Assembly: GCA_001777915.1 (NCBI GenBank)
Contig: MFFN01000006.1
Coordinates: 62,001 to 126,000 of the forward strand
DNA: 64,000 bases
Direction: 5' to 3'
Source: Candidatus Edwardsbacteria bacterium RifOxyA12_full_54_48
GTDB taxonomy: Bacteria; Edwardsbacteria; AC1; EtOH8
The notes beneath the pieces were generated by a model, which saw nothing but the letters and a program-made list of their open reading frames with translations, had not been told where the DNA came from and searched no databases. Made by a program: the position numbers and the translations under genes. Below are positions 652 through 48,536 of the stretch, piece by piece. Each line of letters begins with the position of its first letter. The stretch's first letter is position 1.

Positions 652-1956
652 TCATATTATTTCTTTGATCAATATGACTTCTTCCGGCTTCGTATTTGAA
701 ATATTGATGCATCTTTGAAGCCGATGGGCCGCTTCCCGCCCCTTCTGCTCATCATTGCAAAGCACTTTGACCATGGTGTCCCCTGCTTTGACCTGGTCGC
801 CGATCCTGCGTTCAAAGATGAATCCGGCCGAGGGATCGATCACATCATCCATCTTCAGCCGGCCGCAGCCCAAAAAGACCCCTGTCATGCCCACCTCGCG
901 GTTATCCATGGAGGAGATGTATCCGGATCGCTCCGCTTTTGCCTCGATGACATGCTTGGCCTGGGGCAGCACTTTCTTATAGTCATCGGCCACTTTGGCA
1001 TCCCCGCCGTGGGCCGCTACCATCTCCCTGAACTTCTCCAGCCCCTGACCGGAAGAGACTATCTGCTCAAGGACCCGTTTGCCCGATTCTGCATCCTGGG
1101 CCCGTTCGCCCATCACCAGCATCTCGGCTCCCAGGGCATAGGTCAACTCCATCAGGTCGGCAGGGCCCTTGCCTTTAAGACAGTCCACGCATTCCTCTAT
1201 CTCCAGAGCATTGCCCACCGCCCGGCCCAACGGCTGGTTCATATCGGTGATCAGGGCCTTCATCTTTTTGCCCATTCCCTGCCCAATGGCCGTCATGGTT
1301 TTGGTCAGCGCCAGGGCGTCCTGCTGCTTCTGCATGAAGGCCCCGCTGCCGGTCTTGACGTCCAGCACCAGCCCGTCGGCCCCCTCGGCCAGCTTCTTGG
1401 ACATGATGGACGCGGCTATCAGCGGAATGCAGTCCACCGTGGCGGTGACGTCGCGCAGGGCGTAGAGTTTCTTGTCGGCCGGAGCCAGGTCCGGGGTCTG
1501 CCCCATCATGGCCAGCCCGATCCGGGCCAAAGTATGCCGGAACTCATCGTATGAAAAGTTGGTGCGGAAACCCTGTATGGATTCCAGCTTGTCCAGCGTT
1601 CCGCCGGTGTGGCCCAGCCCCCGGCCTGAGACCATCGGCACCGGCACTCCGGCCGCGGCCACCATCGGGGCCAGGATGATGGATACCTTGTCCCCCACCC
1701 CGCCGGTGGAATGCTTGTCAATTTTTATGCCGGGAATATCCGACAGGTCGAACACCTTTCCGGAGTTCATCATGGCCATGGCCAGTTCGGTGGTCTCCTG
1801 TGCCGTCATGCCTTTCAGGAAGATGGCCATCAGCAGGGCCGAGGTCTGGTAATCGGGAATGGCGCCTGAGGTATAATTGGCGATGAACCATTTGATCTCG
1901 TCCGGCGTAAGCTCGCCGCCATTGCGCTTTTTATAGATGATCTCGTAAGGGGTCAT
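652..1956 (-). CDS. pdp: Pyrimidine-nucleoside (thymidine) phosphorylase
   Basis: Cytosolic enzyme that splits thymidine, deoxyuridine or uridine with phosphate to give the base and (deoxy)ribose-1-phosphate in nucleoside salvage. At 434 residues it has the normal family length. The phosphate-binding segment KHSTGGVGDK is at residues 81-90 and the family signature SGRGLGHTGGTLDKLE at 110-125; the C-terminal PYNP domain is complete. The start is supported by GGAGG about 8 bases upstream. The LysO genes lie 43 bases upstream on the same strand and may be co-transcribed. Whether it prefers thymidine only (DeoA) or all pyrimidine nucleosides (Pdp) cannot be decided from sequence alone. Confidence 0.95.
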   Translation of the reverse strand: MTPYEIIYKKRNGGELTPDEIKWFIANYTSGAIPDYQTSALLMAIFLKGMTAQETTELAMAMMNSGKVFDLSDIPGIKIDKHSTGGVGDKVSIILAPMVAAAGVPVPMVSGRGLGHTGGTLDKLESIQGFRTNFSYDEFRHTLARIGLAMMGQTPDLAPADKKLYALRDVTATVDCIPLIAASIMSKKLAEGADGLVLDVKTGSGAFMQKQQDALALTKTMTAIGQGMGKKMKALITDMNQPLGRAVGNALEIEECVDCLKGKGPADLMELTYALGAEMLVMGERAQDAESGKRVLEQIVSSGQGLEKFREMVAAHGGDAKVADDYKKVLPQAKHVIEAKAERSGYISSMDNREVGMTGVFLGCGRLKMDDVIDPSAGFIFERRIGDQVKAGDTMVKVLCNDEQKGREAAHRLQRCINISNTKPEEVILIKEII

Positions 1957-1999
1957 AAAGCCTCCGATCTATAATATGGAAAGCCAAATATTCCGGGGA

Positions 2000-2602
2000 T
2001 CAAAACTTTAAAATAAATGTCACCAGGAACGGCACCAATATGGTCAGCACCACCCCGCTGAAAACGGATATGATGGCATACTCCTTGCCGGTGAATCTGG
2101 TGATCACGGGAAGCGTGGTATCCATGGAGGTTGCCCCTCCGGAAGCTATCGGGGCCAGCTTTCCGAAATACCGGACCAGCAGCGGTGTCCCCAGCAGGGT
2201 GATGATCTCCCGGAAGATGTTTGAGATCAGAGCCACCACCCCCAGGGCCTGGCCGCTGATCTGTCCTATGAAGATGCTGGAAAGGCTGTAATACCCGAAG
2301 CCCGCGCCGACCGCCAATGATTCCCGCAGGCTGATGTCTTTGAGGAATACTGATGCAAAAGCTGCGCCGGCCAGGGTGCCGGTGATAACGGTCAGCGGGA
2401 CCAGGATTATCTTCAGCCTGGCGCTTTTAAGCACCGCCCAGGCTTTCTGGTCGGCTCCGATCGAGGCGCCGACCAGGAACATCAGCAGGTACAGGGCGTA
2501 TGAGCTGAGATCGTTATTCAGCCAGGCTTCGGGAAGCAGGGGATATATTCCGGCCAGGGTCCCCAGCACGAAAAAGCCGACAATAATGAGAGAGTTCTTC
2601 AT
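2000..2602 (-). CDS. lysO: LysO-family lysine exporter, large C-terminal part
   Basis: A 200-residue hydrophobic protein with about six membrane segments, matching the second, larger half of LysO/YbjE (DUF340), the inner-membrane L-lysine exporter. Conserved-looking features include the acidic pair in LVGASIGADQ and the GAGFGYYSLSS segment. In E. coli the exporter is one chain of about 300 residues; here the first 95 residues are a separate gene whose stop overlaps this start by four bases (ATGA), so the two are translationally coupled. Together they give 295 residues, the size of the fused protein. Both halves are probably needed for function. Substrate assignment is by family, not shown here. 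Confidence 0.85.
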   Translation of the reverse strand: MKNSLIIVGFFVLGTLAGIYPLLPEAWLNNDLSSYALYLLMFLVGASIGADQKAWAVLKSARLKIILVPLTVITGTLAGAAFASVFLKDISLRESLAVGAGFGYYSLSSIFIGQISGQALGVVALISNIFREIITLLGTPLLVRYFGKLAPIASGGATSMDTTLPVITRFTGKEYAIISVFSGVVLTILVPFLVTFILKF

Positions 2603-2886
2603 TCTTTTGCGACAAAGAATATCTGGTAGGTAAAATAGGAAAGGCCTACGCTCCCCGCCACCGCCCCTGCGGTCAGCGCTATGGCCGTCAGTCCCAGGGT
2701 TCCCAGATTCCTTATTATCGTCTCATTGGCTCCCACTGATATGCCCAGCAAAAAAAGCAACAAATATATGGCTAGATTGATGGCGCTACCGATATATCTT
2801 ATAATTCTAGTCTTACGGCGGATCAAATATCCCAGGATGATCCCGGCGGTCATTATGATCAGAACTGTGAACATATGGTTTTTCAA
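2599..2886 (-). CDS. LysO-family exporter, small N-terminal part
   Basis: A 95-residue membrane protein with three predicted helices corresponding to the N-terminal segment of LysO. The stretch LLLFLLGISVGAN resembles LLMFLVGASIGAD in the larger partner, which hints at an internal inverted or tandem duplication in the family. Separate small and large LysO genes are known in several thermophiles and anaerobes, so this is more likely a natural split than a frameshift; the clean ATGA overlap supports that. Confidence 0.8.
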   Translation of the reverse strand: MKNHMFTVLIIMTAGIILGYLIRRKTRIIRYIGSAINLAIYLLLFLLGISVGANETIIRNLGTLGLTAIALTAGAVAGSVGLSYFTYQIFFVAKE

Positions 2887-2943
2887 TATCTTTTATTTAC
2901 GGTTATAATTTATCCCATCTTCCGCCAAAATACAAGCAAAAAA

Positions 2944-2968
2944 AAAGCTCCGGGGTGCCCGGAGCTTT
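2944..2968 (-). terminator. Rho-independent terminator of the REC-DUF4388 gene
   Basis: Perfect 11-bp stem (AAAGCTCCGGG / CCCGGAGCTTT) with a 3-base loop, followed on the minus strand by a run of about ten T. It begins 8 bases after the regulator's stop codon and insulates it from lysO. Confidence 0.93.
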
Positions 2969-2975
2969 CTGTGGC

Positions 2976-3614
2976 TTATTCGTGCACCGCTTTAAAGGTG
3001 CCCTGGTTCCATCCCAGCAAAGTCGTCCAGGTGTTGGCATCCTCCTGTCCATCTATGGTACATTTCTGGATAAAGCCTTCAAAGACCTCGATCCGGCCCG
3101 CCCGGCCGTCAATTGACTTCAGATCGACAAAACCTGACCACACCCCGATGGAGAACATATCTATCAGGCTGAAGATGGAGATGATGGACAGATCCCCCTC
3201 GAATTTCTTGGCCTTCTTGGCGAACAGCTTGATGGCCTCGTTGGAATATTTCAGTCTGATGTTGACGGCCTTGAGCAGCTCCTCCTTGTTTACCGGCTTG
3301 GTAAGATATTTTTGGGCGCCTATGGAGTACCCATAGATCCGGTTATCATGGCCCGTCTTGGCCGTCAAAAAAATGAACGGGATCGCCCGAAGGTTGGGAT
3401 CTTCCTGCAAATGACGGCAAAACTCATAGCCATCCATATTGGGCATCATTATGTCCGAAACGACCAGGTCTGGCTTCTCGTTTTTAGCCCTTTCCAGCCC
3501 CTCCCGGCCATCGTTGGCTATAATGACATCATAGCCCTCTTTTTTCAATTCATAAGCCAATATTCTGGTTATGTTTGGCTCATCATCTACAATTAATAAC
3601 TTATATGCTCTCAT
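2976..3614 (-). CDS. Response regulator: receiver plus DUF4388 (PATAN) domain
   Basis: 212 residues. Residues 1-122 form a CheY-like receiver with the acidic pair D10-D11, phospho-acceptor D54 (VVSDIMMPN), T84 and K106. Residues 130-212 resemble DUF4388/PATAN, a domain found in gliding, motility and two-component proteins of myxobacteria and cyanobacteria that is thought to act in protein interaction. There is no DNA-binding domain, so output is probably through a partner. The ATG at 3614 is chosen because the receiver begins there and because the promoter at 3622-3650 would start transcription almost at that A; there is no Shine-Dalgarno sequence. A second DUF4388 protein is encoded at 50653-51333. 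Confidence 0.88.
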   Translation of the reverse strand: MRAYKLLIVDDEPNITRILAYELKKEGYDVIIANDGREGLERAKNEKPDLVVSDIMMPNMDGYEFCRHLQEDPNLRAIPFIFLTAKTGHDNRIYGYSIGAQKYLTKPVNKEELLKAVNIRLKYSNEAIKLFAKKAKKFEGDLSIISIFSLIDMFSIGVWSGFVDLKSIDGRAGRIEVFEGFIQKCTIDGQEDANTWTTLLGWNQGTFKAVHE

Positions 3615-3621
3615 GGAGATA

Positions 3622-3650
3622 AATATAATATAAAAAAGCTTAAATGTCAA
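3622..3650 (-). promoter_or_regulatory. Sigma70-type promoter giving a probable leaderless mRNA
   Basis: On the minus strand: TTGACA (3645-3650), 17-base spacer, TATATT (3622-3627). Transcription would begin near 3615, at or one base before the ATG at 3614. The missing ribosome-binding site of the downstream gene fits. Confidence 0.75.
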
Positions 3651-3816: not shown

Positions 3817-3845
3817 TTGACATTTTTAATATTTTATGTTATAAT
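3817..3845 (+). promoter_or_regulatory. Perfect consensus sigma70 promoter of the DUF2089/DUF4097 operon
   Basis: TTGACA at 3817-3822, exactly 17 bases, TATAAT at 3840-3845. It lies in an unusually A+T-rich 280-bp stretch that also holds the divergent promoter at 3622-3650. Transcription would start near 3852, 48 bases before the first gene. A promoter this close to consensus suggests strong expression or control by a repressor. Confidence 0.88.
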
Positions 3846-3899
3846 ACAAATAATCAAACAGGAACTTATTAAACAACCCTCATACAAAGGAGAAATAAA

Positions 3900-4103
3900 A
3901 TGAACCGCATCAACGCAATCATGGTCTATGCCGTGATCATAATCTGGACCGGAATTGTCTTGCTGCACGGCATTCCGAACAACGGCTTGAACGCCGGACC
4001 AAGAGGAAAAGGATCTGAAAGCAGGATCGTGAGAACCAAACATGTCTCCCCTGCCCCCGTCCTTGATCATCGGCTCGATTCATTGACCCCCCTCTACTAT
4101 TGA
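3900..4103 (+). CDS. Small single-pass membrane protein, first gene of the operon
   Basis: A 67-residue protein of unknown family. Residues 5-24 (NAIMVYAVIIIWTGIVLLHG) form one hydrophobic helix; the remainder is polar and basic, with no Cys. AAAGGAG stands seven bases before the ATG, an ideal ribosome site, and the gene is the first one after the consensus promoter. Its stop TGA overlaps a possible TTG start of the next frame, but the next gene more likely starts 30 bases further on. It may be a signal-anchored peptide that works with the LiaF-like proteins downstream (inference). Confidence 0.6.
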   Translation: MNRINAIMVYAVIIIWTGIVLLHGIPNNGLNAGPRGKGSESRIVRTKHVSPAPVLDHRLDSLTPLYY

Positions 4104-4132
4104 TCGAAAACTCAAATAAGGATGAATATAAA

Positions 4133-4504
4133 ATGATCAAACAGATGCCCAAAGCCTGCCCGTCCTGCGGTGGAAACCTTTATGTATCGGAATTCAAATG
4201 CCCTGACTGCGATACCGCCGTCAGGGGTGAGTTCCACCTTTCCCCCCTGGGGAATCTGAGCGAGGATCATTTTGATTTCATACGGACCTTCGTGCTGTCG
4301 CGGGGCAACATCAAGGAGGTGGAAAGCCGTATGGGCATCTCCTACCCCACGGTCAGGAACAAGCTGGACGAAGTGATCCGGGCCCTCTCGGAACAGCAGG
4401 CCAATAAAATGGCCCCCGCCGAGGTACTGGATGCGCTGGAGGCCGGAAAAATAACCGCCTCCCAGGCGGCTGAAATGCTGAAAAACAACCAACAAGGAGA
4501 ATAA
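4133..4504 (+). CDS. DUF2089-family zinc-ribbon / helix-turn-helix protein
   Basis: 123 residues. A four-cysteine zinc ribbon (C9, C12, C23, C26) is followed by a helical region with the family's SRGNIKEVESRMGISYPTVR pattern, a helix-turn-helix like those in transcription regulators (residues about 45-85). The C-terminus (about 100-121) carries VLDALEAGKITASQAAEMLK, the same short helical module that recurs in three other proteins of this operon. DUF2089 proteins are believed to be DNA-binding regulators, so this is a likely autoregulator of the operon. The ATG at 4133 has AAGGA nearby and keeps the zinc ribbon at the N-terminus; a TTG start at 4100 is possible. The next gene begins one base after its stop. 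Confidence 0.88.
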   Translation: MIKQMPKACPSCGGNLYVSEFKCPDCDTAVRGEFHLSPLGNLSEDHFDFIRTFVLSRGNIKEVESRMGISYPTVRNKLDEVIRALSEQQANKMAPAEVLDALEAGKITASQAAEMLKNNQQGE

Positions 4505-4505
4505 G

Positions 4506-5693
4506 ATGTCACAGGAAACCGTCAAAATACTTAAGATGCTGGAGGATGGCAAGATCAGTTCAAAAGAGGCTGAATCCCTGCTTTCGGCCATGGGCGGAAG
4601 CCGGCATCGCCACGCCTTCAGTGACCTCGGCATCGACCACAGCCAGTTAAAAGAGGAAATGGACGCCCTGCGCGACAATATCCACCACATAAATCCCGGC
4701 AGGATCGTGGCCGAGGCCATGGCCGGGGTCAAGGAGGGTTTGAAGGGATTGAAGGATATTCATATCGAAATGGATGACCTGCGCGGCTCCGAGAAGGCCC
4801 AGGAGAAAAAGGTGATCACCGTCCCGGCCCAGGGAGTCACCGTCCTGTCGGTCTCCCAGCCCCGCAGCGATTTCGAGATCACCGGGACCGACGGGGACCA
4901 GATCAGCATCAGGGCCGACATCCAGGTCTGGGCCGAGGAGCAGGATGAGGCCCAGGAAAAACTGAAGTCCCTGGGCATCACCACCGAGAATGATTCCGGC
5001 ACTCTTCGCATAAAGGTGGACGGCCCCCCCTGGACCAAAAAACGCCGAACCAAGGTCGACTTCACCATAGAGATGCCCCGCCATATAAAAGCCGAGATCT
5101 CCTCGGCCAGCGGACAGATAACCGTCAGCCAGCTTCACAAAGGGACCAGTTTGAACACCGCCTCCGGTGATATTGAGATATCGGGCTGCCAGGGGGAGAA
5201 CATTCTTTCCTCGGCCTCCGGGGATATCGCGGTCGCCAACTGCAGCCAGGCCTCCTTGAAAATAAACACCGCCAGCGGGGACATCGATGTCAGCGACTGC
5301 TCCGGAGACCTGGCCTTTCAGACGGTCGGCGGGGATGTCAGCGCATCGCTTTCGGGCAATGTCCAGGGGCAGACGGTCAGCGGGGATATCGATATAAAAG
5401 CCCAGAAGCCGGGCGAGATCAAGATCAACAGTACCAGCGGGGACATACAATTTAACGGCCTTATAAGCGAAGACAACCGGTCGGCCATAGCCACGGTCTC
5501 CGGCGATGTGTCCATCGGACTGGCCAGGGTTTCATCGGCAATGATAGAGGCCGGCACCGTCAGCGGGGACATAGACTGCGGCCTGGAGCTGACGGAGTCC
5601 CGCAAGAGCGGCCGCACATTATCGGGAAAGATCGGCGACGGCAAGGGGAACCTGACCGTCAAGACGGTCAGCGGCGATATCGGGATAAACTAA
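4506..5693 (+). CDS. DUF4097 beta-strand-repeat protein with N-terminal SHOCT-like module
   Basis: 395 residues, similar in layout to Bacillus YvlB. Residues 5-27 (ILKMLEDGKISSKEAESLLS) are the SHOCT-like helical module; about 28-100 is a polar, possibly coiled linker; from about 105 onward comes a long right-handed beta repeat in which the unit T(V/A)SGDI occurs about ten times (TASGDIEI, SASGDIAV, TVSGDIDI and so on). No signal peptide or sorting domain is visible, so the repeat is probably cytosolic or membrane-associated despite the family's old name of putative adhesin. In Bacillus relatives such genes belong to cell-envelope stress regulons. It lies directly after the DUF2089 gene with AAGGAG in the overlap. 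Confidence 0.88.
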   Translation: MSQETVKILKMLEDGKISSKEAESLLSAMGGSRHRHAFSDLGIDHSQLKEEMDALRDNIHHINPGRIVAEAMAGVKEGLKGLKDIHIEMDDLRGSEKAQEKKVITVPAQGVTVLSVSQPRSDFEITGTDGDQISIRADIQVWAEEQDEAQEKLKSLGITTENDSGTLRIKVDGPPWTKKRRTKVDFTIEMPRHIKAEISSASGQITVSQLHKGTSLNTASGDIEISGCQGENILSSASGDIAVANCSQASLKINTASGDIDVSDCSGDLAFQTVGGDVSASLSGNVQGQTVSGDIDIKAQKPGEIKINSTSGDIQFNGLISEDNRSAIATVSGDVSIGLARVSSAMIEAGTVSGDIDCGLELTESRKSGRTLSGKIGDGKGNLTVKTVSGDIGIN

Positions 5694-5717
5694 AACTGAA
5701 CAATGAAGGATTGAACA

Positions 5718-5888
5718 ATGAGAAAGACCGCAAAAAAGATCTTCTGGGGACTTTTCTGGGTGGCGGCCGGAGTGGCCGTTCTTCTCTCCAACTACGGCAG
5801 CATAAATTGGCATTTCTCCCTGGCTAGGGACTGGCCGGCAGTGTTCATATTGATCGGCCTCTCCGACCTGATAGAATCGTTAACCTAA
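5718..5888 (+). CDS. Short LiaI/LiaF-like membrane protein
   Basis: 56 residues. The chain has a basic N-terminus, a first helix (about 8-25, ending LLSNYGSI), the loop WHFSLARDW and a second helix (AVFILIGLSDLIESL), the typical two-helix LiaI/LiaF-like transmembrane unit (DUF5668 type). AAGGA lies 7 bases upstream of the ATG. It is a near copy of the first 60 residues of the next protein but lacks its C-terminal module. LiaF-type proteins act as membrane inhibitors or sensors of envelope-stress kinases in Firmicutes; no LiaS/LiaR pair is adjacent here. Confidence 0.78.
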   Translation: MRKTAKKIFWGLFWVAAGVAVLLSNYGSINWHFSLARDWPAVFILIGLSDLIESLT

Positions 5889-5912
5889 ACCAATATAAAC
5901 AAGGAGAAAGAA

Positions 5913-6230
5913 ATGTTCTGTTTTTACGAGAACCGGCCCCGCAAACTGTTATGGGGATTGTTCTGGCTGGCCCTGGGAGCCTTCCTGCTGCTCTCCAACT
6001 ACGGGGTGATCGGCTACCAGTTCTCTTTCAGCCGGGACTGGCCCATACTGCTGATCGCCTGGGGCATCATGAAGATCATCGACACCCTGGCCTGGCGCAA
6101 AGGGAAAAAGGACCATATCACCGTTCTGCAAAGCGAAGGCGACAGCCAGTCCCGGGCCCAGATATTAAAGGCGGTGGAGGACGGCCAGATGAGCGCCGAA
6201 GAAGCCGCCCGGAGGCTCAAAAACCTGTAA
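5913..6230 (+). CDS. LiaF-like transmembrane protein with C-terminal SHOCT-like module
   Basis: 105 residues. Residues 10-60 form the two-helix LiaF-like unit (LLSNYGVIGYQFSFSRDWPI), about 60-80 is a basic linker, and 81-103 is ILKAVEDGQMSAEEAARRLK, the shared helical module. Ribosome site AAGGAG seven bases before ATG. The architecture puts the module on the cytosolic side of a membrane anchor, so it could recruit the soluble module-bearing proteins encoded by the same operon. Confidence 0.82.
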   Translation: MFCFYENRPRKLLWGLFWLALGAFLLLSNYGVIGYQFSFSRDWPILLIAWGIMKIIDTLAWRKGKKDHITVLQSEGDSQSRAQILKAVEDGQMSAEEAARRLKNL

Positions 6231-6277
6231 ACAATGTCAGGGCAATTCATGAATTGCCCCAACAAGGAGGATGGAAC

Positions 6278-6679
6278 ATGTCAGAAGAAAGATTACGGAT
6301 CCTCAAGATGGTCGAAGATAAGAAGATCACCGCCGAGGAGGCCGCCAAACTGCTGTCAGCCATGGACTCCCCTGCCTCCCAGGGCAAGGCCCACTGGCTC
6401 AAGGTCCGGGTGTTCGACAAGGATTCCGAAAAGCCCAAGGTCCGGGTGACCGTGCCGCTGAGCATTTTGAAGATAGCCGGCAAGCTGGGCGGAAAATTTT
6501 CGGTGATGATGCCGGAGGAGGCCAAGGCCCAGATGGAGGCCAAGGGCATCAAACTGGACGCCGAAAGTCTGGAGAACATCGAGCAGTTGTTCGATGAGCT
6601 GGCGGTGAACGGCCGCTACCAATTGGTCAACGTAGAGGACGACCAGGACGGTCAAAGGGTCGAGGTGTACATAGATTGA
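6278..6679 (+). CDS. SHOCT-like-domain protein, last gene of the operon
   Basis: 133 residues, soluble. The N-terminus is the shared module (LRILKMVEDKKITAEEAAKLLS, residues 6-27); the rest (about 38-133) is a compact alpha/beta region with the pattern LKVRVFD...KPKVRVTVPLSILKIAG and a closing strand QRVEVYID, as in the uncharacterised proteins annotated 'SHOCT-like domain-containing'. AAGGAGG stands eight bases before ATG, so this start is preferred over the longer open frame upstream. Function unknown; likely a soluble partner of the LiaF-like and DUF4097 proteins. Confidence 0.8.
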   Translation: MSEERLRILKMVEDKKITAEEAAKLLSAMDSPASQGKAHWLKVRVFDKDSEKPKVRVTVPLSILKIAGKLGGKFSVMMPEEAKAQMEAKGIKLDAESLENIEQLFDELAVNGRYQLVNVEDDQDGQRVEVYID

Positions 6680-6693
6680 CCGGCCGGAAAAAC

Positions 6694-6719
6694 AAAGCCC
6701 CGCCAAACGGCGGGGCTTT
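6694..6719. terminator. Bidirectional terminator between convergent operons
   Basis: Perfect 11-bp stem AAAGCCCCGCC / GGCGGGGCTTT with an AAAC loop. It ends the plus-strand operon 15 bases after its last stop; on the minus strand it is followed by TTTGTTTTT and ends the phoH transcript. Confidence 0.88.
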
Positions 6720-6789
6720 GAGCATACCGTACCCAGGGAATGATCTGCGGGGATCAGTCTTGATCATGAATATCCGCGTTCCATTAACC

Positions 6790-48507: not shown

Positions 48508-48536
48508 ATTATATTTTATTTTCACGGTTATGTCAA
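48508..48536 (-). promoter_or_regulatory. Perfect sigma70 promoter of tRNA-Asn
   Basis: Minus strand: TTGACA (48531-48536), 17 bases, TATAAT (48508-48513); start about 12 bases before the tRNA 5' end. It is the second perfect match in the window. Confidence 0.9.

Follow-up and report, generated by a model that had tools for sequence, protein, structure and literature searches.

Results

The operon and its shared hairpin

The DNA analysed here (the window) is a stretch of 64,000 nucleotides from contig MFFN01000006.1 of Candidatus Edwardsbacteria bacterium RifOxyA12_full_54_48. Near its start it holds an operon that encodes a DUF2089 protein and a Toastrack (DUF4097) protein, and four of the operon's products carry the same short helical hairpin (Table 1). 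The operon has six open reading frames separated by gaps of 1-47 bases. The five proteins counted in a preliminary description of the sequence left out the frame at 5718-5888, whose membrane protein is devoid of the hairpin. The perfect sigma70 promoter and the small membrane peptide that the same description placed at the head of the operon are both there, and so is the helix pattern that it had read four times: all four copies match Pfam PF22746 (SHOCT-like_DUF2089-C), a helical hairpin of 25-30 residues. Three copies exceed the curated cut-off of this family (27 bits) and the copy in the DUF2089 protein lies below it with an E-value of 4e-4. A six-frame search of the whole genome (2,735,535 bases, E ≤ 1) returned exactly these four places and no other, which excludes a chance occurrence of the module. 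The classical SHOCT domain is likewise a short two-helix element, often C-terminal, that is found on unrelated proteins and has no known function (PMC3581485). The operon copies differ from it in that they fall into PF22746, while the classical SHOCT model of Pfam gave no match to the operon proteins at E ≤ 1.

Table 1 Features of the operon (window positions) and of related loci. The A/B score separates type A (positive) from type B (negative) modules.
Feature	Position	Strand	Basis
Sigma70-type promoter, TTGACA-17-TATAAT	3817..3845	+	12/12 consensus match, 17-base spacer
Leader gene, 67-residue peptide, one N-terminal transmembrane helix, genus-restricted	3900..4103	+	Frame kept in 3 congeners
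DUF2089 protein: zinc ribbon (PF22747), helix-turn-helix (PF09862), C-terminal module	4133..4504	+	Pfam; predicted DNA-binding
Module, DUF2089 C-terminus, type B	4424..4486	+	PF22746 20.2 bits; A/B score -11.3
Toastrack protein (DUF4097, PF13349), N-terminal module, no transmembrane segment	4506..5693	+	106.6 bits, E 1.7e-30
Module, Toastrack N-terminus, type A	4515..4601	+	PF22746 31.8 bits; A/B score +10.2
Small LiaI/LiaF-like two-helix membrane protein (PF18917, PF22570), without module	5718..5888	+	Pfam
LiaI/LiaF-like membrane protein, C-terminal module	5913..6230	+	PF18917 36.7 bits, PF22570 33.1 bits, PF22746 29.6 bits
Module, LiaF-like C-terminus, type B-leaning	6153..6230	+	PF22746 29.6 bits; A/B score -1.0
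Last protein: N-terminal module and unnamed alpha/beta domain of ~95 residues	6278..6679	+	Profile and locus survey
Module, last-protein N-terminus, type A	6284..6370	+	PF22746 44.3 bits; A/B score +14.6
Loci with all four module-bearing protein kinds	L043; L099, L106, L107, L109, L112, L113, L122, L127, L131-L133, L136		
Extra small module proteins	L114:4736-5250, L118:4170-4469, L119:5046-6035		

The DUF2089 protein is the only one of its kind in the genome, shares 93-95% identity with its counterparts in two near relatives and was modelled by AlphaFold2 with a predicted local distance difference test score (pLDDT) of 84. Its helix-turn-helix is similar to sigma region 4 and to LuxR-type folds at an E-value of about 0.1, which denotes a resemblance of fold only. 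The two LiaI/LiaF-like membrane proteins are paralogues. The module-bearing one has no C-terminal Toastrack domain of the LiaF type, and positively charged segments flank its two helices (RPRK before, WRKGKK after), which by the positive-inside rule suggests that its module faces the cytoplasm. The last protein belongs to a family with the motif VxVxxPLxLxK...GIDxxxL...VxIxxE that has no Pfam name apart from the module; its domain occurs beside DUF2089 in other phyla, too. A sequence search of the PDB with this domain came back empty and its fold found no convincing PDB match (AlphaFold2 model with pLDDT 70 and a predicted template modelling score, pTM, of 0.44). The LiaX model NF038025 was weakly matched by 22 of 53 members of the family (E ≤ 0.1, best E 5e-8); the last protein is likely akin to the N-terminus of LiaX, although the kinship may rest mostly on the module.

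Related operons in other genomes

In a survey of 389 genomes, composed of the window's own family and a broad sample of other lineages, PF22746 was matched at E ≤ 1e-3 in 111 and over the family cut-off in 91; in one phylum the module exceeded the cut-off in 75 of 100 genomes. We inspected 83 loci around such matches. Of the annotated loci, 73 lie in genomes outside the family of the window, and 64 of these 73 include a DUF2089 gene. Among these 64, a Toastrack gene was present in 40, the last-protein family in 43 and at least two modules in 55. Thirteen DUF2089 proteins in which the profile detected no module still finish in a similar hairpin, so that the hairpin is close to universal in DUF2089. 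Control genomes from culturable lineages (Thermotoga, Deinococcus, Thermus) encode DUF2089, too. Across the genomes of the window's family that hold the locus (L016-L023; contig ends allowed for), the order DUF2089, Toastrack, LiaI-like, LiaF-like with module and last protein is kept. In a further phylum, too, all four module-bearing kinds share a locus, arranged in several different orders. Conserved synteny had been named by the preliminary description as support for its proposal, and the genes for the DUF2089, Toastrack, LiaF-like and last proteins, all with a module, do recur in synteny in other phyla.

Two subtypes of the module

Aligned modules from more than 100 further operons split into two subtypes. 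Type A, carried by the soluble Toastrack protein and the last protein, has Met or Leu at position 8, Lys or Arg at position 13 and Leu at position 22. Type B, carried by DUF2089 and the LiaF-like membrane protein, is polar at position 8 and often has Asp or Glu at position 13, where DUF2089 is most often acidic. For the statistics of a first set we kept one or a few loci per family and left out the relatives of the window. Position 8 was hydrophobic in 83/84 type A modules vs 11/54 DUF2089 modules (Fisher p = 3e-24), and position 22 in 84/84 vs 28/50 (p = 1e-11). Position 13 was basic in 72/84 vs 13/55 (p = 1e-13) and acidic in 2/84 vs 38/55 (p = 2e-18). A profile rule built from these sequences, with membrane-protein modules excluded from training, was correct in leave-one-out runs for 82 of 84 type A and 51 of 55 DUF2089 modules, and the membrane-protein modules of the first set leaned towards B.

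Common ancestry of the sequences means that the Fisher values exaggerate their independence; stronger evidence comes from a held-out phylum with 40 operons, all known loci of which had been removed from training. There, 32/35 DUF2089 and 20/21 LiaF-like membrane modules were assigned to B, and 34/36 Toastrack and 38/38 last-protein modules to A. The subtype follows the kind of protein and not the end of the chain, since the modules at the C-terminus of Toastrack proteins were type A in 16/16 cases. The literature searched contains no description of this partition of the aligned sequences.

Several surveyed operons vary the theme. A three-helix membrane protein that the LiaF-type transmembrane profile does not match occupies the same operon position in L033:3593-3973 and L062:2438-2818, and its C-terminal module is clearly type B. 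A DUF2089 operon with neither a Toastrack nor a last-protein gene (L041) encodes a membrane-anchored protein with an N-terminal module and a tetratricopeptide-repeat-like tail (1778-3124). In one family, the operon gains up to four extra small module proteins of 62-110 residues, mostly type A; several of them (L114, L118, L119) have tails rich in Cys and His, reminiscent of metal-binding sensors added as plug-ins, and L119 holds eight modules within about 4 kb.

Promoter, leader gene and flanking genes

In the congeneric loci L017 and L018, the homologous operons are likewise preceded by perfect promoter hexamers. With up to one mismatch, four such sites were found in the window vs 0.13 expected; a second perfect TTGACA-17-TATAAT lies at 48508-48536 on the minus strand. 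The leader peptide has no match in Pfam or NCBIfam. It shows a ratio of non-synonymous to synonymous differences (pN/pS) of about 0.4-0.7 across the three congeners and a conserved tail, RIVxxKHVSPAPxLDxxxxSxTPLYY. Downstream of the operon lies a hairpin (6693-6720) whose T-run is on the minus strand. It therefore suits the convergent PhoH-like gene better, or else works in both directions.

Upstream, the divergent gene at 2976-3614 has its own near-consensus promoter at 3622-3650 (11/12). A receiver domain is its only Pfam match over the cut-off, with about 90 further residues without assignment, and the gene is present upstream of the operon in L017, too. In that locus, a gene for a secreted protein (L017:1647-2882) is inserted between leader peptide and DUF2089 in the direction of the operon; judged by eye, its product has two D-T/A-G-A aspartyl-protease-like motifs and a PDZ-like C-terminal end.

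Discussion

Relation to known envelope-stress systems

The preliminary description took the combination of these genes to be undescribed. This does not hold: Pfam already lists the module as a family, and the DUF2089/Toastrack context appears in Ravi et al. 2024 (PMC11237479). In the passages of that paper that concern it, DUF2089 is presented as a zinc ribbon-helix-turn-helix-SHOCT-like protein encoded in a four-gene Toastrack context that is conserved, pan-bacterial, known in variants with LiaI-LiaF-TM and proposed to act in stress signalling like the phage shock protein (PSP) and Lia systems (PMC11237479). The operon of the window shares with this context the DUF2089 protein with zinc ribbon, helix-turn-helix and SHOCT-like part (PF22747, PF09862, PF22746 and the AlphaFold2 model), the SHOCT-like Toastrack protein in the same operon (PF13349 with 106.6 bits, gaps of 1-47 bases) and, as the LiaI-LiaF-TM, B-box or PspC partner, two LiaI-LiaF-TM proteins. 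Four module copies per operon, two subtypes or a name for the last-protein domain do not appear in the main-text passages concerned (PMC11237479). The operon may act in envelope stress, and the envelope-sensing switch of the preliminary description is consistent with this literature.

By its membership the operon is neither a PSP system nor LiaFSR. PspA/Vipp1 (PF04012) has no match in the genome, which led us to reject the PSP system proper, and the two PspC copies of the genome both lie on another contig. LiaFSR was rejected since there is no kinase among the operon's reading frames and the LiaF-like protein lacks the Toastrack domain; compared with classical LiaF, it has the same LiaI-LiaF-type transmembrane hairpin (PF18917, PF22570), with the C-terminal Toastrack domain exchanged for the SHOCT-like module. 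The liaXYZ/yvlBCD operons (LiaX/YvlB, with LiaFSR) likewise encode a Toastrack protein whose N-terminal part is SHOCT-like and helical, whereas the operon described here has no PspC, holin-like gene or LiaRS-type pair and has a DUF2089 regulator instead. The cut-off of the LiaX family NF038025 (350 bits) is not reached by the Toastrack protein (29.5 bits) or the last protein (14.3). The operon may nevertheless work like a PSP or LiaFSR system. Elsewhere in the same genome, a stretch of less than 15 kb on contig C4 (236152-250770) holds another pair of Toastrack (DUF4097) genes together with two PspC domains, all without the SHOCT-like module; it may be a second, separate envelope-stress locus.

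Proposed docking between the two subtypes and its alternatives

In our preferred reading, the operon belongs with the DUF2089/Toastrack operons of the PSP/Lia-like envelope-stress class and its hairpins serve as docking handles, type A binding type B; we put the probability of this reading at roughly 45%. The proteins with a fixed place, on DNA or in the membrane, share type B and the soluble ones share type A, and docking of A on B is the simplest way to read this. From the parts, domains, synteny and A/B partition reported above we infer the binding, the partner switch, the signal and the autoregulation. Type A modules, which are distinguished by an additional hydrophobic strip (Met/Leu 8, Leu 22) and by Lys/Arg 13, would dock on type B modules, and the two type B proteins would compete for the type A proteins as in a partner switch. 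In resting cells, the LiaF-like protein might keep the type A proteins at the membrane, or they might sit on DUF2089. An envelope signal would then shift their partition and thereby alter the activity of DUF2089 at its promoters, probably including that of its own operon. Such a switch fits the logic of Lia and PSP operons, in which LiaX and LiaF keep the pathway inactive unless the envelope is perturbed (PMC10269926).

The same hairpins could instead be membrane-association tags, each of which would bind on its own to the inner leaflet or to a shared site in the membrane, so that the proteins are merely co-localised. An anchor at the inner leaflet is what Ravi et al. 2024 propose for the SHOCT-like part in the passages on DUF2089 (PMC11237479), and the wide hydrophobic strip of type A (M/L8, L22) and the presence of the module on soluble proteins of membrane-stress operons would agree with it. 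We consider this explanation unlikely: it does not account for a module on proteins that are already in the membrane (LiaF-like, 20/21 type B), nor for a DNA-binding protein that shares the subtype of the membrane proteins, and the net charge of the module core is negative in every class (-1.2 to -2.1), which is unfavourable for binding to anionic lipid.

As a rule, amphipathic hairpins this short (25-30 residues) require a partner. Any two modules might thus pair into a four-helix bundle and form one mixed complex without switching, as the homology of all copies and the mutual likeness of last-protein and Toastrack modules (mean identity 0.51-0.52 between operons) would allow. Such homotypic pairing seems improbable in view of the sharp A/B partition by protein role and of the one classical SHOCT domain that was tested for self-association, which did not oligomerise (PMC3581485); the latter result is in line with a heterotypic partner. 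Of the common docking unit in the preliminary description, the shared domain is real, but its copies are of two subtypes and the one classical SHOCT domain tested did not self-associate.

Several observations weigh against docking of A on B. Many operons have no membrane gene with a module. In the window itself, the LiaF-like module lies near the A/B boundary (score -1.0) and position 13 of the DUF2089 module is occupied by Lys instead of an acidic residue. In favour of docking, DUF2089 and last-protein modules of one operon are slightly more alike than when shuffled (identity 0.437 vs 0.416, p = 0.004, n = 70), but the coupling within operons is weak and mixed overall, with p = 0.37 for DUF2089-Toastrack and p = 0.72 for membrane-last protein. 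In the operons of the first set, DUF2089 and its partners showed no reversal of charge at position 13, and many pairs are K/K. As a test of binding, this co-variation is weak and inconsistent and neither proves nor excludes it. Natural fusions of an A and a B module in one chain, a proxy for docking, were not found; the double-module protein L057 2367-3053 has two A modules only.

Given this weak coupling and the lack of compensating charges at position 13 in the first set, the A/B split may have arisen by descent or through different third partners. In the latter case, the modules would not bind one another and the operon would have grown by module duplication, with type B binding, for example, RNA polymerase, a sigma factor or a membrane complex and type A something else. 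The sigma-4-like helix-turn-helix of DUF2089 would suit such partners, as would the lineage of L114, L118 and L119, which added small Cys/His-rich type A proteins as if duplicating a plug. We nevertheless regard outside partners as a poor prospect, because the module is restricted to the operon in the genome of the window and 64 of the 73 surveyed module loci adjoin DUF2089; its use seems internal to the system. The confinement of PF22746 to this operon within the whole genome also speaks for docking of A on B.

A wider generalisation, which we hold to be somewhat unlikely, is a plug-and-socket code in which A hairpins on soluble sensors bind B hairpins on a membrane protein or on a sigma-4-like DNA-binding protein. 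This would amount to a partner-switching stress system without PspA or kinase, to which new sensors are added by fusing an A hairpin.

Conclusion

DUF2089 and SHOCT-like domains are widespread, and we found no functional study of either in the searched literature. The A/B partition makes the docking idea directly testable, and since the rule survived a held-out phylum, it yields specific predictions as to which modules bind and which residues (8, 13, 22) matter. If docking of A on B is true, the operon would provide a self-contained route from the membrane to a promoter without a histidine kinase.

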